From Candidatus Zixiibacteriota bacterium (GTDB taxonomy: Bacteria > Zixibacteria > MSB-5A5 > GN15 > FEB-12), in NCBI GenBank assembly GCA_020346225.1, contig CP070777.1, forward strand, positions 1,962,959 to 1,995,268: 32,310 bases of DNA, in the 5' to 3' direction. Each line of letters opens with the position of its first letter. Positions within the stretch are counted from its first letter, which is position 1. The notes under the pieces were generated by a model. That model was not told the DNA's origin. It made no database searches and saw only the letters and a program-made list of their open reading frames with translations. A program made the translations under genes and the position numbers. Of the stretch, positions 3,300 to 17,759 are shown piece after piece.

Positions 3300-4829
3300 A
3301 TGCGGATAAACAACTTGAGTTCGACCAACCCCGCATTAGATCTGGTTCTCATCCGCCTGGCGGAAGAATATTCGTTATCGAAACGATACCAGCCCGGCGA
3401 GACCATTTTCACGGAAGGAGAACCGGGGAGCACCATGCTCCTGATAATTCATGGTACGGTGCGCGTGCTGAAGCAGGGCAGCGACAAGGTCGCGCCACGT
3501 CTGATCGCGATGCGCGGTCCGGGCGATTTCATTGGCGAGATGGCGCTGGTGGAAGAGTCCCCGCGGTTTGCGACGCTCGTAGCCGGTACCGAATGCGAGG
3601 TTCTGGAGTTTTCTCGAGAGAATTTCGAGAAGGTGATCAGCGAGCAGCCGGCTCTGGCAACGCGGGTGCTGCGGAGCCTGAGCAGCAAGCTGCGCGAGTC
3701 GGATTCTTCCCGGCTGGCCGAACTCGAGGAAAACAACCGTCTTCTGACGACCACCAACGAAGAATTGGTGCGGCTGAATTCGTTTCTCGACTGCGTGATT
3801 GACCAATCGCCCAGCTCCATTCTTCTGGCGACACGCATGGGCGATATCTTCCGCATGAACAAGGCCACGACCAGAATGTTCGAGATTCCCACGCCTGAAG
3901 ATGATCTCAATATAAGTACTCTTTTCGCCGACTTCCGGCTGGACGATCTGCTCGAGGACGAGCTCGATTCCTGGCACGGCGAGGCTACCGGCCTTCGTAA
4001 CGGAGAGCGGTTCCCGGTGTACCTGTCGGTGACGTCCCTGTCCGGACATGCCGACAGCCTGCTGCGTCTGGTTATCTGTCAGGACATTTCGGAACTCAAG
4101 CTGCTCAACGAAACGATCGTTGACGTCGAGAAGTACGAAAGCGCCCAGGAAACCGCGGCCGAACTGGCGCACGATCTCAAGAACTATATGGGGGTGCTGA
4201 TCGGAAACGTCGAGCTGGCCCTGAGCCGCCTTACCCCGGAGCAGAAAAGCCAGGTGAAGGGTTCATTTCAGTCGATATCGGACGCCTCCAAACAGATCGT
4301 CCAGTTTGTAGAGAACATGATGATCTACCGCGACGATAAGAGTGACTTTCGTCCCGTTAACCTGCCGGCGGTGATAAACGCCCTGATACGCTTCTGTCGT
4401 TCGCAGGCGGCCTTTCAGACCATCAAATTCGATTTCCAGGCAGCGCCCGATTTTCCCGTCCCGGCCCTTTTGAAGGAAGATCAGATCAGAAGGGTCATCA
4501 TAAATCTTCTGGTCAACGCGGCCGAAGCTCTGTCGCACTCCGCTGACATCCAGGACAAGCAGGTGACGGTGAGACTGGACGTGGCCAGCGGCGGTGATAC
4601 GGTGATCATGACGGTATCCGATAACGGTCCGGGCATCGACGAGGAGCACATCCCCAAACTCTTCAAAGAGCGTTTCACAACCAAAAGCGCCGGTCACGGC
4701 ATCGGCTTGATGTCGGTCGCCAAGATCATCCAGGCTCACGGCGGAACGATACAGGTTGACTCGGAGGTGGGCCGGGGGACGACGTTCGCTTTCACGTTGC
4801 CGATCAGAAAAGAGCGAGCCCATGATTGA
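3300..4829 (+). CDS. Sensor histidine kinase with N-terminal cyclic-nucleotide-binding and PAS domains
   Basis: This is a soluble sensor kinase of 509 aa with no membrane segment. Residues about 20-130 form a CRP-like cyclic-nucleotide-binding domain. Its phosphate-binding cassette keeps GE at 79-80 (FIGEMAL) and Arg89 (SPRFAT), the residues that hold the cyclic phosphate in known binders, so ligand binding is plausible. A coiled linker leads to a PAS domain (about 160-270). The kinase core has phosphoacceptor His291 (AAELAHDLKN), the N box (INLLVNAAEAL), DNGPGID, and the GHGIGL lid. No receiver domain or response regulator is in the window. Its last codons overlap the start of the DUF3307 gene, and a class III cyclase ends the operon, so cAMP is the obvious candidate ligand. 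The start has only a weak ribosome site (AAAAGAG). Confidence 0.93.
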   Translation: MRINNLSSTNPALDLVLIRLAEEYSLSKRYQPGETIFTEGEPGSTMLLIIHGTVRVLKQGSDKVAPRLIAMRGPGDFIGEMALVEESPRFATLVAGTECEVLEFSRENFEKVISEQPALATRVLRSLSSKLRESDSSRLAELEENNRLLTTTNEELVRLNSFLDCVIDQSPSSILLATRMGDIFRMNKATTRMFEIPTPEDDLNISTLFADFRLDDLLEDELDSWHGEATGLRNGERFPVYLSVTSLSGHADSLLRLVICQDISELKLLNETIVDVEKYESAQETAAELAHDLKNYMGVLIGNVELALSRLTPEQKSQVKGSFQSISDASKQIVQFVENMMIYRDDKSDFRPVNLPAVINALIRFCRSQAAFQTIKFDFQAAPDFPVPALLKEDQIRRVIINLLVNAAEALSHSADIQDKQVTVRLDVASGGDTVIMTVSDNGPGIDEEHIPKLFKERFTTKSAGHGIGLMSVAKIIQAHGGTIQVDSEVGRGTTFAFTLPIRKERAHD

Positions 4830-5181
4830 TCTTCTGTTCTTTTTGATACTGGGGCACCTTTTCGGGGACTTCGGCCTTCAGAGCGACCGCGTCGCGGCCG
4901 AGAAAGGCCGATCCAAAGCCACCCTTACCTATCACGTGTTCCTATATACACTGACCGTGGCTCTCTTCCTTTTCGCCGGTCTGGCGCTGAACGGCAGCGA
5001 CGGTTTCTTCCGGCTGGCAACGCTTTTGGTTCTGACATTCATCTTCCTCGCACATTGGATCCAGGATTACCTCAAAGCCTTCAGGTTCAACGGCACCAAG
5101 CAGGCCTTTTACCTCGACCAGGCGGTGCATATCCTCATCTTGTTTGCTGTTAGGATCCTGATATACAATGGGCAAGCGTGA
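4822..5181 (+). CDS. DUF3307 family membrane protein
   Basis: This small membrane protein of 119 aa has about three hydrophobic helices (residues 2-12, 36-56, 65-80) and a less hydrophobic C-terminal one. DUF3307-type features are visible: HLFGDFGLQSDRVAAEK near the N-terminus, LTYHVFLYT after it, and YLDQAVHILIL near the end. The family's biochemical function is unknown. I choose the ATG at 4822, which overlaps the kinase gene's stop by eight bases. An upstream in-frame ATG at 4756 would only add residues that shadow the kinase reading frame. The stop lies inside the start of the cyclase gene (14-base overlap), so the three genes are almost certainly co-translated. It may anchor or sense for the kinase-cyclase pair, which is inference. 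Confidence 0.85.
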   Translation: MIDLLFFLILGHLFGDFGLQSDRVAAEKGRSKATLTYHVFLYTLTVALFLFAGLALNGSDGFFRLATLLVLTFIFLAHWIQDYLKAFRFNGTKQAFYLDQAVHILILFAVRILIYNGQA

Positions 5182-8100
5182 GACCTACCACAGCAATCTG
5201 CTACCGTATATTCCGCGCACCATAGCGGACTGGTACCGGACCTCTCCGGCCGGAGAAAAACACGTGCTCAGCCGGCACGAGGGGATAATCGTCTGTATCG
5301 ATGCCTCGGGATTCACGGTTCTGACCCGCCGCCTGTCGAGCCGGGGTAAAGAAGGCCCGGAGATTTTGACCGGTGTCCTTAACCGGTTTTTTGAAGCGAT
5401 TTCCGGCGTAATCTTCCGCTACGGGGGCGATGTATTGAAATTCGCCGGCGACGCCCTGTGGGCCTTCATGCCGGACAATTTGAGGCTGGCCGACTTTTTC
5501 GGTTCGTTATTGGTGGCCCTTGATTCGGTAAATTCCTGCGACCTGCTGGCCGGAGGTGCCCCGCTCAAGATTCATGTCGGCGCCGAAACCGGCGGATTCT
5601 ATCTCGCTTCGATGGGCGACGCCGATGTGCGCCTAGAAGCCGAGCCGGTCGGTAACATTCTGGGCGTGGTGTATCGGGCGTGCGATACCGCCGGCGACAA
5701 CGAGTTTGCGGTCGGGCCGGCTTTGACCGGCCGACACGAAGGCAGCCACCTGCTGACCCCGACCGACAACAATTTCAGCCTGGTGCTGCCCAACCGCGAG
5801 GGAAGCGGTCCGTTCACGGGCGAGGGCGCACCGGACGGTGAGTCGGCCCAACCCGATGATCTGGATTTTCTAACGCCTTACATCGCCCAGGATGTTCTCC
5901 GCAAAATAAGAACTTCGGCGCCCTCGATGTCGGTGCAGGGAGAACATCGTCAGGTGGTCGTCCTGTTCGCCAACTTCGCGAACAACTTCGGTCGTCGCGG
6001 GGATGATCCGGGCGAGGCAATCACCGCCCTGAACCACAAACTGAAAACGGCCTTCGAGATTATCCGCCGGTACCACGGCAGCATTGCCCGTATCGATCCT
6101 TACGGTCGGGGGCATAAGCTGCTGGTTCTGTTCGGGGCACCAACGAAACGCGAGAATGACGAAATCAACGCCCTTATGTGCGCCACCGGGCTGATCAATC
6201 TTGCCGATGATTCCTTCCGCATCCGCATCGGTCTGGCCATCGGTACCCTTTTCTGCGGCGATGTCGGGGCGACCAGTCGGCGGGAGTACACGGTGATGGG
6301 AGAGGGCATCAACCTGGCGGCACGGTTGATGTCAAAGACGTCCTGGAAGGAGATTCTGGTCGGAGACACTTTGCGCTCCCGGCTGCCGGAGGAAGTGATC
6401 ACGGAACGGGTGACGCTGTCGCTCAAGGGCATCGGGGAAGCAGCGGTCTGTCATCGCTTTGTCGGGATCTCCGAGAAGTCACGGAGACGCCAGGCCGGTT
6501 TTACCACGATCGGGCAGCAGACGCAGGCGGATGGGTTGGCCGCCATCTGGAAGGAGACGCTCGGTGGGGCCAAGCGGTTGGTGATGGTTACGGGCGTCAC
6601 CGGCGTGGGAAAGTCTACCCTCGTCGACAACTTCGTGGCTCAAGTCGCCGGTGATGGTGGTTTCAATCTGGAGTGCAAGAACTCACTGCTTTTCGCGCGC
6701 GGCTGGCTCACGCGCAAACTTCTGGAGGGACTGCTGCGGAACAACGCCCGGCACCAAACAGAATCGGTGGAGGATTTTGTAGCGGCCGGCGTCGGTGAAA
6801 ACTGGCTGCCGCTGTTTGCGGACGTGCTCCGGTCAAGGGCCGCAGAAAACGCCTGGACGACCGGCCTCACGCCGGAATTACGGACTGCCAAGACAGCGGA
6901 ACTTTTTCGCGACCTGGTCACGGCCGCCGTCGGCGGACCACAGGTGGTGGTCATCGACGACTTTGACCTGGCGGACGAGTCCTTCCGCGCCCTGGTGATG
7001 TCTTTGGACGAGATACCCGGTGATTTGCCGCTGATGCTGGTACTGGTGGCGCGGGAAGCCGCGGGTCCGCTATCGGACGGTGATCATGTCGGAGGGTTTG
7101 TCAAGCTTCGGGTTGAAGAACCTTCTGAAGAGGAGTGGTGGCGTTTCTTTGACGAACAGTTCGAACCGGGCAAACGCGAGAGGGAACTCTTTGAACGAAT
7201 CCTGGATGCGTCCAAAGGCAATCCCCATTTCATCATGCAGTTTCTGGACAACTGCCGCCAGTCCAGCCAGATGGTGAAGAATGCCGTGACGGGGAGATGG
7301 GAACTGGCCGACTCCGGGATTCAGGTATCGGTACCGAGCAACCTGGCGTCGCTTCACCTGTCGTTGTTCGACGGTCTCCCCGAAATTCAGCGAACCATTC
7401 TCAAGGCGGCGGCGGTATCAGTTGGTAACTTCTCGGCTAAACTGATCGGCAACGTAGTGACAGAACTGCCGCAGGACGAGATCGATGACTGCCTTCACAA
7501 ACTGACCGAGGCGGATCTGCTGCAACACGAATCTCAGAAGAAGCGATTCAGTTTCACCCACACCTCGATGCGCCAGGCCGTATACGAGTGCATCCCGAAA
7601 TCACAAGTGAGAAGCCTGCACCTTCACTACGCCGGGGTAGCCGAAAACAAGGGGACCGGCGATCACGCCAACTTGCTGGCTTATCATTTTTACCGGGCCG
7701 GCCACTGGCGTAAGGGTTTCAAGTATTCCCTGAAGGCGGCGGTGCAGTCGTTCGACAACCGTGCCCTGACAGAGAGCGCCGGGTATTTCGGACAGTGTGC
7801 CGAGATTATCGACAGCGGCCGCGATTCCGAAGTGGCCGTAGCCGACAAGCTGGAATTCTTCAACCGTTTCTCTGAGTTTCTGGTTCATGAAGGGAAGTAC
7901 GCGGAAGCTTACCGGGCGGCCCGTTGCTGGCGGCGTGCGGGCAGGGCCGACAAGCGCACGCGCGACTGTCTGATGGCGGCGGTCACGACGGCTCTGCTGA
8001 TGTTTCGTCAGTCCAGGTACGCGCGGAGCCGCCAAGTGCTGCAGGCGGTTCTGAAGGCGGCCGCCCAGCACGGCGACCAGAAGGTGCTGGCCAGAGCCTA

Positions 8101-9253
8101 TTCGCTGAGCGTACAGGTTGACCGTCGCACCGGCGACTCGGCAGGGGCTCAGGCGAATGGAAAAAAGGCCGTCGAGATAGCCGAGAATATCGGTGATGTT
8201 GACATAATAGTGGAGGCGCGAAACCGGCTCGGACTGGCATACTGGAGTGGGGGCAAATTCGACAAAGCCGCGGAGAGTTATCAAAAGGCTATTGCCGCGG
8301 CCGAGGACAATCGTCTTCAGCTGGCCCTGATGCAAAATAACCTGGCACTGATTGAGCAGGATCGGGGGCATTTTGTTGCGGCGGAGCGTCTTTTCACCCA
8401 GGCTCTCGACACTTTCAGGAGCGTCGGCGACCGACGCAATGAAGCTTACTCGTCGGGAAACCTATCCAACCTGTGCCGCATATTCGGTAAACTTACGCAG
8501 GCCAAAGAACTTCTGCGGCAGGCTGATCTGATATTCGAGCGGATCGGTGATCGGCATTCCCACATGTACATCGTCGGTAACCTGGGCGACCTGGATCTCA
8601 TGCTGGGCAAGATGACACGGGCCGAAAGCCGGTTTTCCGAAGTGGCGGAGTTCGCCCGCGAGGTGGACGACAGGGAATTGATTTCGGAGTGCGAGGTTCG
8701 CTTCGGCGAGCTGGCCTTCTTTTCGGGTGATATCACCGAGGCGGAAAGCAGGTACCGCAAAGCCGTCAGCATCGCCGAGGAAATCGGTGCCGTGGAGTAT
8801 CTGGCCCGAGGCAGCATCGGTCTGGCCCGTCTGCTGATTGGCGAACGGGACCACGGCCGGGCCATTGAAATGATAGAAAAGCTCTCAGCCGCCGCCCGTG
8901 CCCATAACCTGGTGCTGGCCGAGCATGAGGCCCAGTTTCTCACCGGGGAGCATCATCGCATACAGAAGGACAACTCCCTCGCCGCCGATTGCTACCTGAA
9001 GGCCCTGGCCTACGGCCGGGAACAAAACCTCTTCGAATTGGTCCTGAAGGCGGCGGCTCGATTGTACGAAACCAGCCCGACGCATCTGGAAGAAGCCGCC
9101 ACTATTATAAGGAGCGGTCGGGACGATTTCATCGCCGACAACAGTGTTACCAGCTGGGAGCAGTTCGTTGGCGCGCCTTACTTTTCATACTTCTCCAAAA
9201 CGCTCAAGGAACTCCTGCCCCGAAAACAGTGGACCGAGGCCGAGACCGTGTAG
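5168..9253 (+). CDS. Soluble adenylyl cyclase-like protein: tandem class III cyclase domains, P-loop NTPase, TPRs
   Basis: This 1361-aa protein has the layout of animal soluble adenylyl cyclase (ADCY10): two class III cyclase domains, a STAND/AAA-type NTPase and a long TPR tail, with no membrane segment. C1 (about 38-185) keeps both metal Asp residues, D45 (CIDASGFT) and D95, plus K91 in DVLKFAGDALWAF, but has Gly166 where the transition-state Asn should be. C2 (about 262-405) has the opposite pattern. VVLFANFANN lacks the first Asp, while N382 and R386 of GINLAARLM are present. Together they make one complete composite site. Walker A is GVTGVGKST (476-484), Walker B is VVVIDDFD (near 592), and TPR-like helices fill about 870-1330. 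It most likely makes cAMP. It ends in TAG and is the last gene of the kinase-DUF3307 operon. Confidence 0.93.
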   Translation: MGKRETYHSNLLPYIPRTIADWYRTSPAGEKHVLSRHEGIIVCIDASGFTVLTRRLSSRGKEGPEILTGVLNRFFEAISGVIFRYGGDVLKFAGDALWAFMPDNLRLADFFGSLLVALDSVNSCDLLAGGAPLKIHVGAETGGFYLASMGDADVRLEAEPVGNILGVVYRACDTAGDNEFAVGPALTGRHEGSHLLTPTDNNFSLVLPNREGSGPFTGEGAPDGESAQPDDLDFLTPYIAQDVLRKIRTSAPSMSVQGEHRQVVVLFANFANNFGRRGDDPGEAITALNHKLKTAFEIIRRYHGSIARIDPYGRGHKLLVLFGAPTKRENDEINALMCATGLINLADDSFRIRIGLAIGTLFCGDVGATSRREYTVMGEGINLAARLMSKTSWKEILVGDTLRSRLPEEVITERVTLSLKGIGEAAVCHRFVGISEKSRRRQAGFTTIGQQTQADGLAAIWKETLGGAKRLVMVTGVTGVGKSTLVDNFVAQVAGDGGFNLECKNSLLFARGWLTRKLLEGLLRNNARHQTESVEDFVAAGVGENWLPLFADVLRSRAAENAWTTGLTPELRTAKTAELFRDLVTAAVGGPQVVVIDDFDLADESFRALVMSLDEIPGDLPLMLVLVAREAAGPLSDGDHVGGFVKLRVEEPSEEEWWRFFDEQFEPGKRERELFERILDASKGNPHFIMQFLDNCRQSSQMVKNAVTGRWELADSGIQVSVPSNLASLHLSLFDGLPEIQRTILKAAAVSVGNFSAKLIGNVVTELPQDEIDDCLHKLTEADLLQHESQKKRFSFTHTSMRQAVYECIPKSQVRSLHLHYAGVAENKGTGDHANLLAYHFYRAGHWRKGFKYSLKAAVQSFDNRALTESAGYFGQCAEIIDSGRDSEVAVADKLEFFNRFSEFLVHEGKYAEAYRAARCWRRAGRADKRTRDCLMAAVTTALLMFRQSRYARSRQVLQAVLKAAAQHGDQKVLARAYSLSVQVDRRTGDSAGAQANGKKAVEIAENIGDVDIIVEARNRLGLAYWSGGKFDKAAESYQKAIAAAEDNRLQLALMQNNLALIEQDRGHFVAAERLFTQALDTFRSVGDRRNEAYSSGNLSNLCRIFGKLTQAKELLRQADLIFERIGDRHSHMYIVGNLGDLDLMLGKMTRAESRFSEVAEFAREVDDRELISECEVRFGELAFFSGDITEAESRYRKAVSIAEEIGAVEYLARGSIGLARLLIGERDHGRAIEMIEKLSAAARAHNLVLAEHEAQFLTGEHHRIQKDNSLAADCYLKALAYGREQNLFELVLKAAARLYETSPTHLEEAATIIRSGRDDFIADNSVTSWEQFVGAPYFSYFSKTLKELLPRKQWTEAETV

Positions 9254-9319
9254 GTCATTCCCCTCACTTTTAGTCGTTTCGTCCCGATTGTTCAAACTCT
9301 CCGGTCGGACATTCAAAAC

Positions 9320-9335
9320 TTGCACACCCGGCTAA
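9320..9335 (+). promoter_or_regulatory. Putative enhancer-binding-protein site 1 (TTGCA-N6 dyad)
   Basis: TTGCACACCCGGCTAA is the first of four related 16-bp imperfect dyads (consensus TTGCAC-N4-CTGYAA). It is preceded by TTCAAAAC, shared with copy 2. The TTGC start lies exactly 78 bp before the -24 GG at 9398, near -100 relative to the inferred transcription start. That is a normal distance for a sigma-54 activator. This copy has the weakest right half. Confidence 0.65.
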
Positions 9336-9396
9336 GCTGCTGCCGCCCAGCAGACTGTCCTTCTTCGCCCACCTTTCGTGTGGATTTTTCATTCAA

Positions 9397-9412
9397 TGGC
9401 CTCACGGTTGCT
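9397..9412 (+). promoter_or_regulatory. Sigma-54-type promoter of lipoprotein gene 1
   Basis: TGGCCTCACGGTTGCT has the -24 GG (9398-9399) and -12 GC (9410-9411) separated by exactly 10 bases, with TTGC, as in the RpoN consensus TGGCAC-N5-TTGCW. The inferred transcription start near 9423 gives a leader of about 83 nt to the ATG at 9506. Just upstream is the shared box GTGTGGATTTTTCA. Confidence 0.75.
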
Positions 9413-9505
9413 TCACTGTGAAACAAATCGAAAGGCTGACTCAGTAGCCAGGGACGAGAGTAGAAGACACATAATTAGAATAGGTAGGCACGAAAGGAGC
9501 GCACC

Positions 9506-10090
9506 ATGAGAGACCTAAGCTGCAACCGGGGGCTTGTTGGGTGGCGTTTGATAACGCCCGTTCTGATAGCCTTGTTGCTGGGAGCCACATTCTGGCTATC
9601 GGGGTGCAGCAACGGACCGCTGGAGGTGAACACCACCGAAAGTGAAACCAGCTTCTTCGACCTCCCCTTTGACGAAGTCGAATTCACCAAAGGTGGAAAG
9701 ACGTACGACGGCATCTACTACGCCGATGACTACATCAAGGCTGACGAAGGGGGCTTGCTGACGGTAACCCATCGAGGGGCAACGTTTACGTTCGAAGTTA
9801 TGCCCAACTCAATTTCGGACGACATGTTGATTACCCTCGTGGTTTACGTCGTTGAAGACACACCGGAGCAGACCACGATAATATACGAGTTTGGCCCCGA
9901 TGGCCTGGTCTTCTCAGAGCCGGCTATCCTGACGCTGGAGGCCGAGGCTGTTACCGGTGAAGGATCCGATTCGGTCGACTGGTACTACCTCGATAGAGGC
10001 CGGTGGATGTATCAGGGCTCCTTCCATGCGGAGAAGGACGGCAAGATCAGAATCCAAATGGAACACTTTTCCCGGTGGGGAACTGACTAA
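9506..10090 (+). CDS. ZU5-like lipoprotein, paralogue 1 of 4
   Basis: This exported lipoprotein has 194 aa. A signal peptide ends in the lipobox LSGC with lipidated Cys34. The mature protein begins with a linker containing the family signature SFFDLPFDEVEF. It continues into one predicted beta-sandwich domain with ADEGGLL, IIYEFGPDGLVFSEPAIL, and a closing HFSRWGTD. The PDGLxFSxPAxL pattern is typical of ZU5-like domains in bacterial surface proteins. Molecular function is unknown. A ribosome site (AAAGGAG) precedes the ATG. The gene has its own sigma-54-type promoter and terminator, so it is a single-gene transcript. It differs from the others in lacking the LxWLNExT motif, having DWYYLDRGRW instead. 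I cannot tell which membrane it sits in. Confidence 0.9.
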   Translation: MRDLSCNRGLVGWRLITPVLIALLLGATFWLSGCSNGPLEVNTTESETSFFDLPFDEVEFTKGGKTYDGIYYADDYIKADEGGLLTVTHRGATFTFEVMPNSISDDMLITLVVYVVEDTPEQTTIIYEFGPDGLVFSEPAILTLEAEAVTGEGSDSVDWYYLDRGRWMYQGSFHAEKDGKIRIQMEHFSRWGTD

Positions 10091-10162
10091 AGAGGAGGAA
10101 ACAACCGGTCATACAATTTGACAATCATCAGAGTCACACTGAAACCAGCTAACTTTCAAGAC

Positions 10163-10193
10163 CCCGGGGCCAGGCGGCCCCGGGTTTTCTTTT
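10163..10193 (+). terminator. Intrinsic terminator of lipoprotein gene 1
   Basis: A perfect 9-bp GC stem (CCCGGGGCC at 10163-10171, GGCCCCGGG at 10176-10184) with a 4-base loop is followed by TTTTCTTTT. It lies 72 bases after the stop. Confidence 0.9.
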
Positions 10194-10206
10194 GGCCTTC
10201 CTTCGG

Positions 10207-10257
10207 CCCCGATCGCGGGGTCGGAGGCACCGCCCACCCGCCCCACAATCTGTGGGG
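10207..10257. repeat. Two small perfect hairpins between terminator 1 and promoter 2
   Basis: CCCCG-ATCG-CGGGG (10207-10220) and CCCCACA-ATC-TGTGGGG (10241-10257) follow the terminator. Neither has a clear T-run, so they may be back-up termination or mRNA-end structures. I see nothing else between here and the dyad at 10321. Confidence 0.5.
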
Positions 10258-10320
10258 TAAATCCCATATAAGAGAGCCGAATAACCCGGCGTTTCGTTTC
10301 TGAACGCAAACTTTCAAAAC

Positions 10321-10336
10321 TTGCACAGGGCCGCAA
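10321..10336 (+). promoter_or_regulatory. Putative enhancer-binding-protein site 2 (TTGCA-N6 dyad)
   Basis: TTGCACAGGGCCGCAA is a dyad (TTGC/GCAA) preceded by the same TTCAAAAC found at copy 1. Its TTGC starts exactly 78 bp before the -24 GG at 10399. Confidence 0.7.
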
Positions 10337-10397
10337 CAACCTTATCGGCAAAAGGATACGTCGCACTTTGGCTGCCCCGTGTTGAATTCTCCCCCAC

Positions 10398-10413
10398 CGG
10401 TCTGGTTCTTGCT
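10398..10413 (+). promoter_or_regulatory. Sigma-54-type promoter of lipoprotein gene 2
   Basis: CGGTCTGGTTCTTGCT has GG (10399-10400) and GC (10411-10412) separated by 10 bases, with TTGC kept. The -24 half is the least canonical of the four. The inferred leader is about 81 nt. Confidence 0.65.
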
Positions 10414-10504
10414 GAAACGATACCATGAACATACATGAAACCAGGTTCCACTGGCGGGAGCAGGTTTTGAGAGGCACGATGGCATTACGTTAGGAGGGCA
10501 AGCC

Positions 10505-11206
10505 ATGAGAAAAGCAGATACACGATCGAGGGCACTAAATGGGGGCATGATAGTATCGTTTCTTATAGTCCCGATGTTGGTGGGTGCACTGTTCATTTCC
10601 GGCTGCGGAGATACTTCGCTCATGCCGGAAGCGGATGATTCTTACGGCGATGGGACAAGTTTCTTTGAACGGCCCTTCGACGCCGATGCACTGGCCAAAC
10701 CGTCCTATTCTGACATCGACACGTCATATGTAGTCGTAGAATATCTGGAGGCTGCCGAAGGAGGCGTGCTTCTTATGGACGGTGCTGAAGATTTGTCGAC
10801 CGCGGAGGCGCTTGTAATTCAGGCCGAGTCTTTCGTGGCTGACACAACTTTTGTTGTCGAGGTCATCAAGATTGTTACCATTGACGGCGAATCACCGATT
10901 ATATACGAATTTCAGCCCGACGGCCTTCAGTTCTCGAAGCCGGCTATACTGAGAGTGAACGCCTGGGCAGATTTCGGTCATAAGGCCACCAAGGTCAGGT
11001 TGTTCTGGTTAAACGAAGTTACCAGCGAGTGGGAGCTCCAGGCGGAGACCCAGGTCGACCCGGAAACCGGAATGGCCTATTTCGACTGCCTCGACCACTT
11101 CTCCAAGTGGGGCACGGACGACGGAGGCTCGAGTACCAATGAGCCGTCCGGCCCTGATGACGGCAGCGGCAGCGGCGGAGGCGGTACCAAACCGACCGGC
11201 ACGTAG
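10505..11206 (+). CDS. ZU5-like lipoprotein, paralogue 2 of 4, with Gly/Ser-rich tail
   Basis: This 233-aa lipoprotein has the lipobox ISGC at Cys34, the same position as in paralogues 1 and 3. Family motifs appear in order: SFFERPFDADALAKP, AAEGGVLL, IIYEFQPDGLQFSKPAIL, FGHKATKVRLFWLNEVTSEWE, and HFSKWGTD. Unlike its relatives it continues for about 30 residues in a low-complexity tail rich in Gly, Ser and Pro (DDGSGSGGGGTKP), probably a flexible extension. The ATG at 10505 has TTAGGAGGGCAAGCC directly upstream, a strong ribosome site. It is transcribed alone from a sigma-54-type promoter and ends in TAG ahead of a T-rich terminator. Function is unknown. Confidence 0.9.
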   Translation: MRKADTRSRALNGGMIVSFLIVPMLVGALFISGCGDTSLMPEADDSYGDGTSFFERPFDADALAKPSYSDIDTSYVVVEYLEAAEGGVLLMDGAEDLSTAEALVIQAESFVADTTFVVEVIKIVTIDGESPIIYEFQPDGLQFSKPAILRVNAWADFGHKATKVRLFWLNEVTSEWELQAETQVDPETGMAYFDCLDHFSKWGTDDGGSSTNEPSGPDDGSGSGGGGTKPTGT

Positions 11207-11230
11207 AATACACGCAAAGAGTTATAGAAG

Positions 11231-11259
11231 AGGGCAGGCAGAGCGCCTGTCCTTTTTTT
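11231..11259 (+). terminator. Intrinsic terminator of lipoprotein gene 2
   Basis: The stem AGGGCAGGC (11231-11239) pairs with GCCTGTCCT (11245-11253) through one G:T pair. A run of T residues to 11259 follows. Confidence 0.88.
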
Positions 11260-11409
11260 GCTTTCTTTATTAAGGGGCCGTGAGGCGAAGGCATCTTGGC
11301 TTAGACACTGAAGCGCAAGCGGCGTGGCTCCAATAGACTGCTGGTATCTCCCCACACATTCGAGTGAATATCAGGGTGGCTGGCCTATAATCGGATAGCC
11401 TGTCAGTTA

Positions 11410-11425
11410 TTGCGCACTGCTGTAA
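11410..11425 (+). promoter_or_regulatory. Putative enhancer-binding-protein site 3 (TTGCG-N6 dyad)
   Basis: TTGCGCACTGCTGTAA is the dyad copy with one change in the left half (G for A) and a good right half (TGTAA). Its TTGC starts exactly 78 bp before the -24 GG at 11488. The TTCAAAAC flank of copies 1 and 2 is degenerate here (GTCAGTTA). Confidence 0.65.
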
Positions 11426-11486
11426 GCCGTTGTCTCACGGTGACAAGACGGCGCGATGCCGGAGGCGGTGTGGGTTTTTCGCTCAG

Positions 11487-11502
11487 CGGCCCACAGCTTG
11501 CT
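11487..11502 (+). promoter_or_regulatory. Sigma-54-type promoter of lipoprotein gene 3
   Basis: CGGCCCACAGCTTGCT has GG (11488-11489) and GC (11500-11501) with a 10-base gap. It is preceded by GTGTGGGTTTTTCGCTCA, matching the box at promoter 1. The downstream TTCAATTTGAAAC also resembles promoter 1 (TTCACTGTGAAAC). The inferred leader is about 81 nt. Confidence 0.75.
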
Positions 11503-11593
11503 TCAATTTGAAACGGAGAAAGCCGGACTGCTGCGGGCCGGCTGACGAATTGTGAAAGTAGACGGAAAGACATAATTGAGAAAGGAAGGCGCT

Positions 11594-12208
11594 ATGTTTG
11601 CCAGGCGCATTCAATCAAGGGCTGCCAAGTGGGGCTTGCTGGCGTCGATGCTGGCGGCCTTCGCTTTGTTCTCCGGCCTGTATCTGCCGGGGTGCAGCGA
11701 TAACCCGGCCGGCTCTTCAGATGTCACCGAATCGGGGGAGACGAGCTTCTTCGACCTGCCATTCGATGAGGTGGAGCTGGCCAAGAAAGTCGCGGATCCC
11801 ACGACATTGGTAACTGTCGCTCTCGGCGAGCAGGATATAATCGCCGCGGATGGAGGTCTCATCACACTGGTTTCCGTCGGCACCAGCGCCACACAGGAGC
11901 TGCTGGTTCCGGAGAATACTCTTCCGTATGACGTTACCATCTCGATTGAGCTTTTGAGGCTGGAGAGCAAGAAGAGTCGCGACGTAACGTTAATCTACGA
12001 ATGTTTGCCCGACGGATTGGTATTCACGCAGCCAGCCATTCTGAAGCTGGACCTGGTGAAGACTCTGGGCAAGAAAGCTACCTGCGCCCACATGTACTGG
12101 TTGAACCCGGTGACCAATCAGTGGGAATCCCAGGGCGACTACTATCCGGACGCTGCAGGTTTCGTCTATTTGCCCTTCTGGCACTTCTCGCGATGGGGTG
12201 TTGATTGA
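11594..12208 (+). CDS. ZU5-like lipoprotein, paralogue 3 of 4
   Basis: This lipoprotein has 204 aa, counted from the ATG at 11594. That ATG has AGGAAGG six bases upstream and places the lipobox (LPGC) Cys at residue 34, as in paralogues 1 and 2. An upstream in-frame TTG at 11576 is therefore rejected. Motifs are TSFFDLPFDEVELAKK, ADGGLI, LIYECLPDGLVFTQPAIL, LGKKATCAHMYWLNPVTNQWE, and HFSRWGVD. The first motif is nearly identical to paralogue 1, while the WLNxVT motif groups it with 2 and 4. It is a single-gene transcript with its own promoter and terminator. Function is unknown; export and lipidation are the secure predictions. Confidence 0.9.
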   Translation: MFARRIQSRAAKWGLLASMLAAFALFSGLYLPGCSDNPAGSSDVTESGETSFFDLPFDEVELAKKVADPTTLVTVALGEQDIIAADGGLITLVSVGTSATQELLVPENTLPYDVTISIELLRLESKKSRDVTLIYECLPDGLVFTQPAILKLDLVKTLGKKATCAHMYWLNPVTNQWESQGDYYPDAAGFVYLPFWHFSRWGVD

Positions 12209-12249
12209 CCAGAAGCAATACCAGTTCATTGAATCTACAAACCATATTC

Positions 12250-12282
12250 CCCCGGGGCCGTCAGGCTCCGGGGCTTTCTTTT
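12250..12282 (+). terminator. Intrinsic terminator of lipoprotein gene 3
   Basis: CCCCGGGGCC (12250-12259) pairs with GGCTCCGGGG (12264-12273) through one G:T pair, with loop GTCA. TTTCTTTT follows. Stem and tail are very like terminator 1. Confidence 0.88.
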
Positions 12283-12382
12283 GGATCCCGGGGTTGGCCG
12301 CAGTCACCACTCTATAGGACGCGGTCAATATTTCTCTTGATTTCAGCGACCCGTGAAACCCCTGCACGGCTGTCGTCAAATC

Positions 12383-12398
12383 TTGCACATCACTGTAA
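12383..12398 (+). promoter_or_regulatory. Putative enhancer-binding-protein site 4 (TTGCA-N6-TGTAA dyad)
   Basis: TTGCACATCACTGTAA is the most symmetrical copy apart from copy 2, with TTGCA opposed to TGTAA. It is preceded by GTCAAATC, resembling TTCAAAAC at copies 1 and 2. Its TTGC starts exactly 78 bp before the -24 GG at 12461. Confidence 0.7.
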
Positions 12399-12459
12399 TC
12401 TATTGAGCCCTTTAACACTAGGTCGACCGGCCGCCTGCGCCTGTGGATAATTCACTCAT

Positions 12460-12475
12460 AGGCCTACCCCTTGCA
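12460..12475 (+). promoter_or_regulatory. Sigma-54-type promoter of lipoprotein gene 4
   Basis: AGGCCTACCCCTTGCA has GG (12461-12462) and GC (12473-12474) spaced by 10 bases. It is preceded by CTGTGGATAATTCACTCA, matching the box of promoters 1 and 3. The inferred leader is about 79 nt. Confidence 0.72.
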
Positions 12476-12564: not shown

Positions 12565-13212
12565 ATGAGGAAGTTACTTACGCGGAAGATACCGAGCAAG
12601 TGGAGCATACTGATAACTCTATCGGCCCTGGTGGTCTTTGTCGGGGCCGTGCTGGTTCTGTCGGGCTGTAGCAACGACGGGATGCTTTCGGATGTGCCGG
12701 ATTCGACCGGCGACGATCCGAGTTTCTTCGACCAGCCCTATGACCCCGGCGCCCTGGCCAAACGAAGCGATATCAGCGATATCCAGTTCGACTCAGCCCA
12801 GGCCTATGTTCGGGCTGACGAGGGCGGCATGCTGGTACTGGGCGACGATGCCAACGTCGCAGCTCTTGTATTTCTGCCGGGCTCCGTTTCACAGGACACG
12901 CTGATCAGCGTCGAAATCACCAGCCTGGCGACGACGGCCGGTGAGACGCCGGTGATATGGGATTTCAAGCCCGACGGCCTTCAGTTCAGCCGTCCGACTA
13001 TCGTGCGCCTGAACGCCGCGGAGCTGTTCGGAACGTCCACGTCGTCAGTCACTCTATACTGGCTGAACGAGGCGACGCACGAATGGGAACCTGAGCAGGT
13101 AAGCGAGGTCGATAGCGAAGGTGTCGTCTGTCTGGAGCTCAAGCACTTTTCCAGCTACGCCGCAGGAGAGAAAAATGGAGACGACAATGTCGGAAGTGAA
13201 GCCGCCAAGTAG
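12565..13212 (+). CDS. ZU5-like lipoprotein, paralogue 4 of 4
   Basis: This 215-aa lipoprotein has the lipobox LSGC at Cys35. Motifs are PSFFDQPYDPGALAKR, ADEGGMLVL, VIWDFKPDGLQFSRPTIVRL, LFGTSTSSVTLYWLNEATHEWE, and a degraded closing motif (HFSSYAAG in place of HFSRWG). A short charged tail follows. It is closest to paralogue 2 by the shared GALAK/DALAK and KPDGLQFS patterns. AGAGGAGGACGCG before the ATG is a good ribosome site. It stops with TAG and is followed by its own terminator, after which a gene on the opposite strand converges. Function is unknown. Confidence 0.9.
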   Translation: MRKLLTRKIPSKWSILITLSALVVFVGAVLVLSGCSNDGMLSDVPDSTGDDPSFFDQPYDPGALAKRSDISDIQFDSAQAYVRADEGGMLVLGDDANVAALVFLPGSVSQDTLISVEITSLATTAGETPVIWDFKPDGLQFSRPTIVRLNAAELFGTSTSSVTLYWLNEATHEWEPEQVSEVDSEGVVCLELKHFSSYAAGEKNGDDNVGSEAAK

Positions 13213-13272
13213 CGGGACCGGCCCGATCACATGACAGAAGATCGAAAAGACTGAATAAAGCGGAATAATCCG

Positions 13273-13299
13273 GGGCACGCCACCAGCGTGCCCTTTTTT
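13273..13299 (+). terminator. Intrinsic terminator of lipoprotein gene 4
   Basis: GGGCACGC (13273-13280) pairs perfectly with GCGTGCCC (13286-13293), with loop CACCA and then TTTTTT. It lies 60 bases after the stop and protects against the convergent gene. Confidence 0.92.
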
Positions 13300-15055: not shown

Positions 15056-16114
15056 TTACTGATCTTTCTTGAGTTTCAGTCTGAGAATAACGTCGTTGGC
15101 TCTGACTTCCTTACCGTCGATGTCACCGACCACCTCGAATTGAATAATGGCGTTGACGGGAACGCGTGAGGAGTCCATACCGTACCTGAGGCCGACGACG
15201 TCATCATCTGAGAATACTTCGATTTCCGGTTCAATATCGCCGCTGAGACTATCGGCTTTCATGCGCAGCACCAGCGACCGGGTGGCGCTGCCGTCATATA
15301 GAATCGCGCTTTGAACTTTCACCTCATGCGAGATGGCCATCCCGGCAAAAAGCTTCTCGATTTCGGCCTGGACTTCTTCGTCGGTCAAGCCGGTAGCCCT
15401 GAGCAGGGCGGTGAGACTGGTCTTGCCTATGACAAGCTGCCCGTCCTCAAAGCGCACTCTTACGGGCGCGACCTCGCGGGGTTTGACCTTGTCGGCAACC
15501 TGCGCGTAGATAGTAGCCGAAACGCTCCTGACTACCGGCTTGACGGCGATACGCACCTTCGGCGAAACAACAACTCTTACGGCTTCCGCAATCTCACGCG
15601 CCTCGATCTCGGACGGGATGCCGGAGATTTCGTATTCCCCGTTGACTTCGTCATAAGCCGAGGTTATGCGAAGATCTTCGAGTCCGGCGGTCAATAGAGC
15701 GGTCGTCACCAACTCCGATGACGCGACAGCCCGGGCATCGACATTGGACAGCGATACCTGGTAGGCCACCGTGCGCGTAACGGAGAAGGGAACCAGGGTA
15801 ATAAACAGAACCGTGATCACAGCCAGGCATAGCCCGGCGGTGAACCGCGGTCTGGCGAGATATTGATCCTTTATCGGCAACATGATTTTCTCCCAAATGG
15901 TTTGACCCGAAATCCGGGCGTTGATCAAACTCCGTGTTTGCTCGAACGACGGCACCGCTTCTTCAGAGGCAGCCAGCCTGAACATCCGCCCGACCAGACG
16001 GTCGGCTTCCGCAAAGCGAGCGCAGGAGGGACAGGCCGAAACGTGTTCGGCCACCCGGCGGTCGTGTTTGCCGGGGTTATCAGCCATCCACTGTCTTGCA
16101 TCTTCGCAGCGCAT
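15056..16114 (-). CDS. Zinc-finger anti-sigma factor with large extracytoplasmic domain
   Basis: This 352-aa membrane protein starts at the ATG at 16114, which has GGAGG eight bases upstream; a TTG two codons earlier is less likely. The N-terminal 60 residues form a zf-HC2 anti-sigma domain, with HVSACPSCARF giving the H-x3-C-x2-C zinc site. A single membrane helix follows (about 93-114, GLCLAVITVLFITLVPFSV). The remaining 240 residues lie outside the cytoplasm and contain repeated alternating beta/alpha stretches that I do not recognise. The gene starts inside the end of the upstream ECF sigma gene (35-base overlap), so the pair is translationally coupled. It should hold that sigma factor inactive until a periplasmic signal arrives, following the family model. 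Confidence 0.85.
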   Translation of the reverse strand: MRCEDARQWMADNPGKHDRRVAEHVSACPSCARFAEADRLVGRMFRLAASEEAVPSFEQTRSLINARISGQTIWEKIMLPIKDQYLARPRFTAGLCLAVITVLFITLVPFSVTRTVAYQVSLSNVDARAVASSELVTTALLTAGLEDLRITSAYDEVNGEYEISGIPSEIEAREIAEAVRVVVSPKVRIAVKPVVRSVSATIYAQVADKVKPREVAPVRVRFEDGQLVIGKTSLTALLRATGLTDEEVQAEIEKLFAGMAISHEVKVQSAILYDGSATRSLVLRMKADSLSGDIEPEIEVFSDDDVVGLRYGMDSSRVPVNAIIQFEVVGDIDGKEVRANDVILRLKLKKDQ

Positions 16115-16643
16115 AAGCAATTCCTCCGTCGTTCTGACCGGTCCGGCATCTGGCCAGGTGTCTTTCCAGACGCTCTCGCATCTTCGCTCTGGCCCGAAAC
16201 AACCGGGTCTTGACAGTGCCTCGCGGCTTGCCGAGAGTTCCGGCTATGTCAGCTACCGACCAGCCATCGATTTCGTGCAGGACAATGATGGCTCGGTCTT
16301 CGGGCGAAAGCACGCCCAGCAGCTCATCGAGCAGCCGACGGGCGGCAAACTCTTCCTGTGGATCAAAACCGGTCGCCGTTTCGAGCATGGCCGGTGTCAG
16401 CGATACGCGCCGTCGGTGCCAGAGACTCCGCAGGCGATTCTTGAAGCGGCTTATGATTATGCGGATCAGCCAGGGCCGAAAGGCGGTATGGTCTTTCAGC
16501 GAGCCCAGCCGGCGCAGGGCAACCATTAACGCCTCCTGGTAGAGGTCGTCACCGTCATCGCTGTCTCCGGTCAGTTTCCGGCAGAAAGCGGCCGCCATCG
16601 GATGAACCGGTTTCAGAAGCTTCCAGAAGAGTTCATTGTCCAT
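16080..16643 (-). CDS. ECF-type RNA polymerase sigma factor (second pair)
   Basis: This 187-aa sigma-70 family ECF factor has a region 2 with GDDLYQEALMVALRRLGSL and FRPWLIRIIISRFKNRLR. Region 4 has LDELLGVLSPEDRAIIVLHE followed by the helix-turn-helix WSVADIAGTLGKPRGTVKTRLFRAR. The ATG at 16643 sits behind AAAGGTG; an in-frame GTG two codons upstream is the alternative. A gap of 74 bases separates it from the preceding anti-sigma gene, so it may have its own promoter or be read through. The C-terminus (after ERLERHLARC) runs about 20 residues past region 4 and carries the start of the anti-sigma gene. It should direct polymerase to a small set of promoters on release. Confidence 0.93.
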   Translation of the reverse strand: MDNELFWKLLKPVHPMAAAFCRKLTGDSDDGDDLYQEALMVALRRLGSLKDHTAFRPWLIRIIISRFKNRLRSLWHRRRVSLTPAMLETATGFDPQEEFAARRLLDELLGVLSPEDRAIIVLHEIDGWSVADIAGTLGKPRGTVKTRLFRARAKMRERLERHLARCRTGQNDGGIAYALRRCKTVDG

Positions 16644-16717
16644 GCTCACCTTTAAGACACATCATACCGCGAGCAGGTTTCAATTTTATGTGCTAAGCGT
16701 CGGCGAGAGTTGACCTG

Positions 16718-17227
16718 TCACCGGTCTATCGAAATGGACCCCTGAGGCAGCGCTGCCTTACCCCTGGCGATAACCTTCAACCCTTCAGCCGAAAACCGGT
16801 GTCCGGCTATGGACGCCAGTTCGTACCGGGTTATGTCCGCGGGTAATTCCGCGATTTCTGATGTGGAAGGGCGGCCGCCGGAAGGATCGACAAGTAATGT
16901 CTTGGTGCTGTAGCCGGCAACGAAAATCAGGACCGCCGCAGCGACCCTCAGCAGCAGGCTTATCGGCTTGGGCATCCGGTATGCGGCTTCCTGTCCGGCC
17001 GCCGCCATATGGCGGTAAATATTGCTCTCGAGCTTCAGCTTTTCACTATCAGTGAGGTCCTGTGTACGGAAATGCTCAAAAGCCCGCACAACGGCGACGA
17101 GTTCATCGTACTCGCCACGGCATTCGGGGCAACCCTCGAGATGTTCTTTTAACCGGGCGGCCTCATCATCGGCAAGTTCACCGATAACGAACAGGGCGAT
17201 TTTGTCTTTACACTGCTTACAGTTCAT
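16718..17227 (-). CDS. Zinc-finger anti-sigma factor, single-pass membrane protein (first pair)
   Basis: This 169-aa protein begins MNCKQCKDKIALFVIGEL and contains LKEHLEGCPECRGEYDEL, a zf-HC2 anti-sigma domain with the H-x3-C-x2-C site. A single hydrophobic helix lies at about residues 91-110 (LLLRVAAAVLIFVAGY). The roughly 60-residue extracytoplasmic tail is short, unlike that of the second anti-sigma factor here. Its ATG overlaps the stop of the sigma gene as ATGA, typical of strict stoichiometric coupling. By family it sequesters the upstream sigma factor at the inner membrane. The activating signal is unknown. Confidence 0.88.
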   Translation of the reverse strand: MNCKQCKDKIALFVIGELADDEAARLKEHLEGCPECRGEYDELVAVVRAFEHFRTQDLTDSEKLKLESNIYRHMAAAGQEAAYRMPKPISLLLRVAAAVLIFVAGYSTKTLLVDPSGGRPSTSEIAELPADITRYELASIAGHRFSAEGLKVIARGKAALPQGSISIDR

Positions 17228-17739
17228 CGGTATTCCTCTTTTAGTAAAGGCACAAGACGTTTCTTCAAGTTCCTCAGGGCCCGGACGAGATGCACCTTGG
17301 CCGAACCCTCGGAAATTTTCAGAACGCCGGAAATCTCGGAGAAGGTTGCCTGCCCGTAGAAGCGCAAGAGGACAACCTCCCTTTGCTTGCGGGCCAGCGT
17401 CGAAACAGCCTCCGCCAGCAGAAGCGATTGTTCGGCTGATTCGAACTCCACGTCCGGTCTTCGGGCGGTGGCGCCGCCGGGAGCCTGCGAGGCAGCCAGT
17501 AACTTGGTTCGCCGCCGGGTGCGGTTTCTTCTGGCATTCAGGGCCAGATTAACGGCGGTCCGATAAATATAGGCTTTCATCCGCGATTTATCCCGCAGCC
17601 GTCCGTGGCCGGTCATAACTTTTAGAATTGCTTCCTGTGTCAAATCGCGCGCCTCGTCACGGTCGCCAACAATCCGGACAATCAGTCTGAAGGCGGTATC
17701 AAGGACTTCGGGAATGATTTCGTGTACTTCGTAAGCCAT
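17224..17739 (-). CDS. ECF-type RNA polymerase sigma factor (first pair)
   Basis: This 171-aa ECF sigma factor has region 2 motifs DRDEARDLTQEAILKVMTG and KAYIYRTAVNLALNARR. A variable linker follows, then region 4 with STLARKQREVVLLRFYGQ and the recognition helix-turn-helix FSEISGVLKISEGSAKVHLVRA. I use the ATG at 17739, which has AGGGTG in front; an in-frame GTG 15 bases upstream is possible. It lies 20 bases after the lipoprotein gene and overlaps its anti-sigma gene by four bases, so lipoprotein, sigma and anti-sigma are probably on one transcript. Confidence 0.93.
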   Translation of the reverse strand: MAYEVHEIIPEVLDTAFRLIVRIVGDRDEARDLTQEAILKVMTGHGRLRDKSRMKAYIYRTAVNLALNARRNRTRRRTKLLAASQAPGGATARRPDVEFESAEQSLLLAEAVSTLARKQREVVLLRFYGQATFSEISGVLKISEGSAKVHLVRALRNLKKRLVPLLKEEYR

Positions 17740-17759
17740 GTCGCACCCTGACACAAGTC

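Follow-up and report, generated by a model that had tools for sequence, protein, structure and literature searches.

The window, a 32,310-nucleotide stretch of DNA lying in a 3.18-Mb single-contig genome of a Candidatus Zixiibacteriota bacterium, carries four tandem paralogous lipoprotein genes (A to D), and a genome search revealed that these four constitute the entire family in this organism. A purine-rich ribosome-binding site precedes each of the four starts (9506, 10505, 11594 and 12565), and a hairpin-T terminator was found 3' of each gene:

9506..10090, + strand: lipoprotein A, ZU5-like fold (translation, family search, structure prediction)
10163..10184, + strand: hairpin-T terminator of A
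10505..11206, + strand: lipoprotein B (translation, family comparison)
11226..11258, + strand: hairpin-T terminator of B
11594..12208, + strand: lipoprotein C (translation, family comparison)
12250..12273, + strand: hairpin-T terminator of C
12565..13212, + strand: lipoprotein D (translation, family comparison)
13272..13294, + strand: hairpin-T terminator of D

The earlier proposal that the array consists of single-gene units, each ending in its own terminator, is backed by these terminators and by the order of the cassettes in relatives (see below).

AlphaFold modelling of lipoprotein A predicted a beta-sandwich with confidence (pLDDT 82 on average and >90 across most of the domain); its best PDB structure matches are ankyrin ZU5 domains (prob 1.00, TM 0.45, E 1.4e-4), and we conclude from this model that the lipoprotein domain is predicted to adopt a ZU5-like fold. 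The predicted fold is thus shared with the ZU5 proteins ankyrin, ZO-1 and UNC5, from which the bacterial lipoproteins differ in lacking a Pfam ZU5 match above the curated cut-off: the profile scored 13.8 bits against a cut-off of 21, and this in one of the four paralogues.

The array lies 3' of a gene for a large protein (5168-9253) that combines a class III cyclase, an AAA_16/STAND ATPase and TPR repeats, resembles TOMM kinase-cyclase fusions and is laid out like soluble adenylyl cyclase; across the genus this gene retains its place beside the array. Two genes 5' of the cyclase, at 3300-4829, an orphan histidine kinase bears an N-terminal cyclic-nucleotide-binding domain and could possibly connect cAMP to the array by way of a two-component pathway. 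In the related genomes G017 and G013, genes 3' of the arrays encode proteins that fuse a cyclic-nucleotide-binding domain with a fumarase/aspartase-type lyase domain (L066:346-2229 and L063:649-2520, both on the - strand). Further along the window, two adjacent gene pairs resemble, by eye from the translations, an ECF sigma factor with its anti-sigma partner (15056-17754, - strand).

Upstream of all four lipoprotein starts, at a distance of 104-108 nt, lies a GG-N8-TTGC (i.e. GG-N10-GC) motif matching the -24/-12 elements of sigma-54 (RpoN) promoters:

9398..9411, + strand: sigma-54 -24/-12 promoter of lipoprotein gene A, GGCCTCACGGTTGC
10399..10412, + strand: sigma-54 promoter of gene B, GGTCTGGTTCTTGC, the weakest of the four
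11488..11501, + strand: sigma-54 promoter of gene C, GGCCCACAGCTTGC
12461..12474, + strand: sigma-54 promoter of gene D, GGCCTACCCCTTGC

The sequence-only reading had located GG-N10-GC with TTGC at these four places, with coordinates one base wider on each side, and its distances from GC to ATG (95, 93, 93 and 91) are correct for the starts given above. The bare GG-N8-TTGC pattern occurs 22 times in the window versus 22.8 matches expected from shuffles, and since this is chance density the pattern alone is no proof of promoters. What places the four sites beyond chance is their position and their conservation. Three same-genus genomes (4, 6 and 5 family members) and one from a neighbouring genus (2 members) contain a single array each, and GG-N8-TTGC is found at the expected place in 18 of the 21 array genes of the five genomes; the remaining three genes stand close behind another member, which fits transcription by read-through. 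In all 18 promoters GG and TTGC are invariant, and GG is mostly extended to GGC as in the consensus. In promoter B the positions other than GG and TTGC agree poorly with the consensus. A position weight matrix trained only on the 14 promoters of the four related genomes, with the window copies left out, ranked exactly the four window sites 1-4 of 64,394 positions (scores 82.6, 78.5, 57.9 and 25.1; next best position -7.8). A sigma-70 reading with TTGCACA, a conserved upstream motif, as the -35 element was discarded, as the alignment contains no consistent -10.

The RpoN assignment had been made to hinge on the presence of rpoN, and the genome indeed encodes one complete RpoN of 468 aa with the activator-interacting (AID), core-binding (CBD) and DNA-binding (DBD) domains. 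Its gene adjoins that of an ABC-transporter ATPase that is lptB-like by eye; lptB is the usual neighbour of rpoN. The genome also contains ~20 strong matches to the sigma-54 activator (AAA+) domain. On the grounds of rpoN and activators in the genome, the invariant GG and TTGC in 18/18 promoters and the occurrence of sigma-54 promoters at distant homologues, the four sites are, as judged from sequence, genuine sigma-54 promoters.

These distant homologues are single-copy genes, and all 12 with upstream DNA available possess both a GGCA-N6-TTGC consensus promoter and, directly 5' and in the same direction, an activator gene; the one such activator that was checked in full comprises a sigma-54 AAA+ domain and a Fis-type HTH. 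The DNA between activator gene and promoter contains GGAACnnTTCGTTCC-like sites near -186 from GG and, in the majority of loci, near -94 as well. Similarly, among 13 loci examined in other families of the phylum, an activator gene stands upstream in 10 and the promoter pattern is present in 7. Such promoters and activator genes at distant homologues indicate that sigma-54 control of the lipoprotein family is old. The distant loci (L098:5478-10693) run in the order activator, ZU5-like lipoprotein, TPR protein and TPR-HD (HD-GYP-like) protein. The array blocks described below differ in sequence from the GGAACnnTTCGTTCC dyad, and comparison of the loci indicates that the array lineage has lost the neighbouring activator and that its upstream motifs are altered. 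The activator adjoining the distant homologues has no orthologue in this genome (best 36-44%), and reciprocal best hits among six genomes disclosed no activator with the distribution of the array. A single lead, the candidate activator L026, was dropped as too widespread (30 of 54 genomes), and a TCAAAAATTGCACA match beside an activator in G013 is no more than the loose search pattern would give by chance.

The sigma-54 cores are less unusual than the conserved blocks upstream of them, which the sequence-only reading had not noted. When anchored on GG, the 18 upstream regions of the array promoters from the five genomes align ungapped and reveal a control unit of ~180 bases that consists of a distal dyad, a -85 block, an AA, a T-block and the -24/-12 core. 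Relative to GG, the dyad lies near -150 (GG..CC near -145/-136, clearest as TGTAGG-n6-CCCACA in group A), GTT is conserved at -108, TCAAAAyTTGCACA at -85..-72, AA at -64/-63 and TGTGGrTTTTTC..CA (the T-block) at -19..-3; these are followed by GGC, TTGCTTCA and, near the start, TGAAAC. In the window these elements are:

9248..9269, + strand: distal dyad TGTAGG-n6-CCcnCA, gene A
9312..9327, + strand: upstream block TCAAAACTTGCACA, -86..-71 from GG, gene A, putative activator/architectural site
9379..9395, + strand: T-rich block TGTGGATTTTTCATTCA abutting the -24 element, gene A
10249..10270, + strand: distal dyad TGTGGGGTAAATCCCATA, gene B
10313..10328, + strand: upstream block TCAAAACTTGCACA, gene B, putative activator/architectural site
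10380..10396, + strand: T-rich block, gene B
11338..11359, + strand: distal dyad-like CTGGTATCTCCCCACA, gene C
11402..11417, + strand: upstream block TCAGTTATTGCGCA, gene C, putative activator/architectural site
11469..11485, + strand: T-rich block, gene C
12311..12332, + strand: distal block, gene D (weak)
12375..12390, + strand: upstream block TCAAATCTTGCACA, gene D, putative activator/architectural site
12442..12458, + strand: T-rich block, gene D, contains TGTGGATAA

Read on the opposite strand, the TGTGGATAA of promoter D (12442-12450) is a perfect DnaA box. In promoter A the distal dyad shares bases with the cyclase stop codon (TG TAG G), an overlap that seems to recur in two relatives.

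The spacing of the blocks was assessed by leave-one-out placement in the 18 array promoters, with a free shift of 20 bp allowed in each direction. Both the -85 block and the T-block landed no more than 1 bp from their expected positions in 18/18 promoters, the distal dyad in 16/18 (one of the misses being masked sequence) and the -108 block in 12/18, and unconstrained MAFFT alignment placed zero internal gaps in 16/18 over the composite stretch. Conservation displayed a weak peak of helical periodicity near 10.75-11 bp. Among the four window copies the core and blocks share an identity of 0.695, versus 0.26, i.e. random, for the 42-bp spacer (-62 to -21), and the spacers between blocks have undergone no net length change.

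A sequence model of the full composite element finds only these four copies in the genome and none elsewhere. Across 54 genomes of the family, only the 18 array promoters were recovered at E < 1e-12, and other matches had E > 0.001 and were mostly partial; as the model was built from the same 18 promoters, recovering them is no test, and the result is the absence of others. Two additional genomic matches of TTGCACA plus GG-N8-TTGC have other spacings, are missed by the full model and were taken as chance. The term "dedicated" regulon is fair in that the element occurs in this genome only at these genes.

We favour, at a probability of roughly nine in ten, the interpretation that sigma-54 promoters on self-contained cassettes are opened by an NtrC-family activator acting at the upstream block(s). 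Each cassette would comprise an enhancer-promoter unit, the gene and its terminator. RNA polymerase with sigma-54 would wait in a closed complex on GG-N8-TTGC until an NtrC-family AAA+ activator, whose gene would lie at another place in the genome, attaches to the conserved upstream block(s) and uses ATP to open the polymerase complex. The putative activator sites span roughly -110 to -96 and/or -175 to -154 from the predicted start, and one activator would serve all four genes.

Known sigma-54/enhancer-binding-protein systems resemble the array in GG-N10-GC, TTGC at -12, the presence of rpoN and of NtrC-type activators in the genome, and conserved blocks some 100-175 bp 5' of the start. Activator sites are usually described as situated ~100-150 bp upstream and as working through looping, often aided by IHF (PMC7057263), and survey data indicate that their distances vary (PMC4641369), whereas in the array the main blocks are fixed within 1 bp in 18 copies from five genomes. 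Such exact spacing is unusual compared to enhancers that loop from varied distances and suggests a rigid complex: in place of an enhancer that loops freely, it might reflect a stereospecific protein-DNA assembly, possibly with a bend at the T-block. In its full form, a non-looping unit of ~180 bp in which dyad, -85 block, T-block and core stand in exact register for one rigid activator-polymerase complex and are duplicated and rearranged together with each paralogue as a cassette, this idea is tentative and in our view doubtful.

Rather unlikely as well is that a second regulator, be it a repressor or a co-activator, occupies the blocks and that the sigma-54 activator operates from another site or from solution. 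In favour of this reading, it is not clear that the -85 block, the -19 T-block and the -150 dyad represent a single motif, and a TTCA-n3-TGAAAC dyad overlaps the -12 element and the start region in most copies (group D lacks it), a typical repressor position; on the other hand, the -85 block and the distal dyad lie at distances usual for activator sites, and a dyad in the same range accompanies the activator gene of distant homologues. It is highly improbable that the blocks are simply retained ancestry from a recent tandem duplication, functionless beyond the sigma-54 core: the genes are indeed tandem paralogues, and orthologous promoters resemble one another slightly more than paralogous promoters do, but copies that had diverged neutrally to random spacer identity would have lost blocks and spacing, and here the blocks stand at ~0.7 with no net change in spacer length. 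Scarcely credible, finally, is a structured RNA or leader from an upstream start instead of a DNA-level promoter, for which constant length with variable spacers would be typical too, but against which RNAalifold found no stretch of the ungapped alignment with a consensus structure and, in gene A, the distal block extends into the tail of the preceding coding sequence.

The array promoters form four orthologous groups, with a slight but significant excess of identity inside groups (0.475 within versus 0.452 between groups, permutation p 0.0015), and such group-specific variants make separate tuning of the four genes plausible. In three same-genus genomes the array also lies 3' of the genes for the cNMP-binding histidine kinase, DUF3307 and the cyclase/STAND/TPR protein. 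By best hits the gene order is A-B-C-D here versus A-C-B-D in the genus relatives, and this difference in order suggests that cassettes move as units.

The "bacterial exterior" has been described as a theme of sigma-54 (PMC3162934). Control of lipoproteins by sigma-54, predicted from sequence for the array, has a counterpart in Borrelia Rrp2/RpoN, where control passes through RpoS (PMC6719511), whereas the array carries sigma-54 promoters directly on each lipoprotein gene and belongs to an unrelated phylum. The literature searched yielded no publication on sigma-54 in Zixibacteria and no earlier description of a regulatory module made up of an NtrC-type activator and a sigma-54-driven ZU5-like lipoprotein. 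With 18 promoters from five genomes, random spacers and fixed blocks, the array provides a natural dataset on how far sigma-54 enhancers need exact geometry. The activator/ZU5-like lipoprotein module occurs in several Zixibacteria families and in one lineage has expanded into an array whose genes mostly retain promoters of their own.
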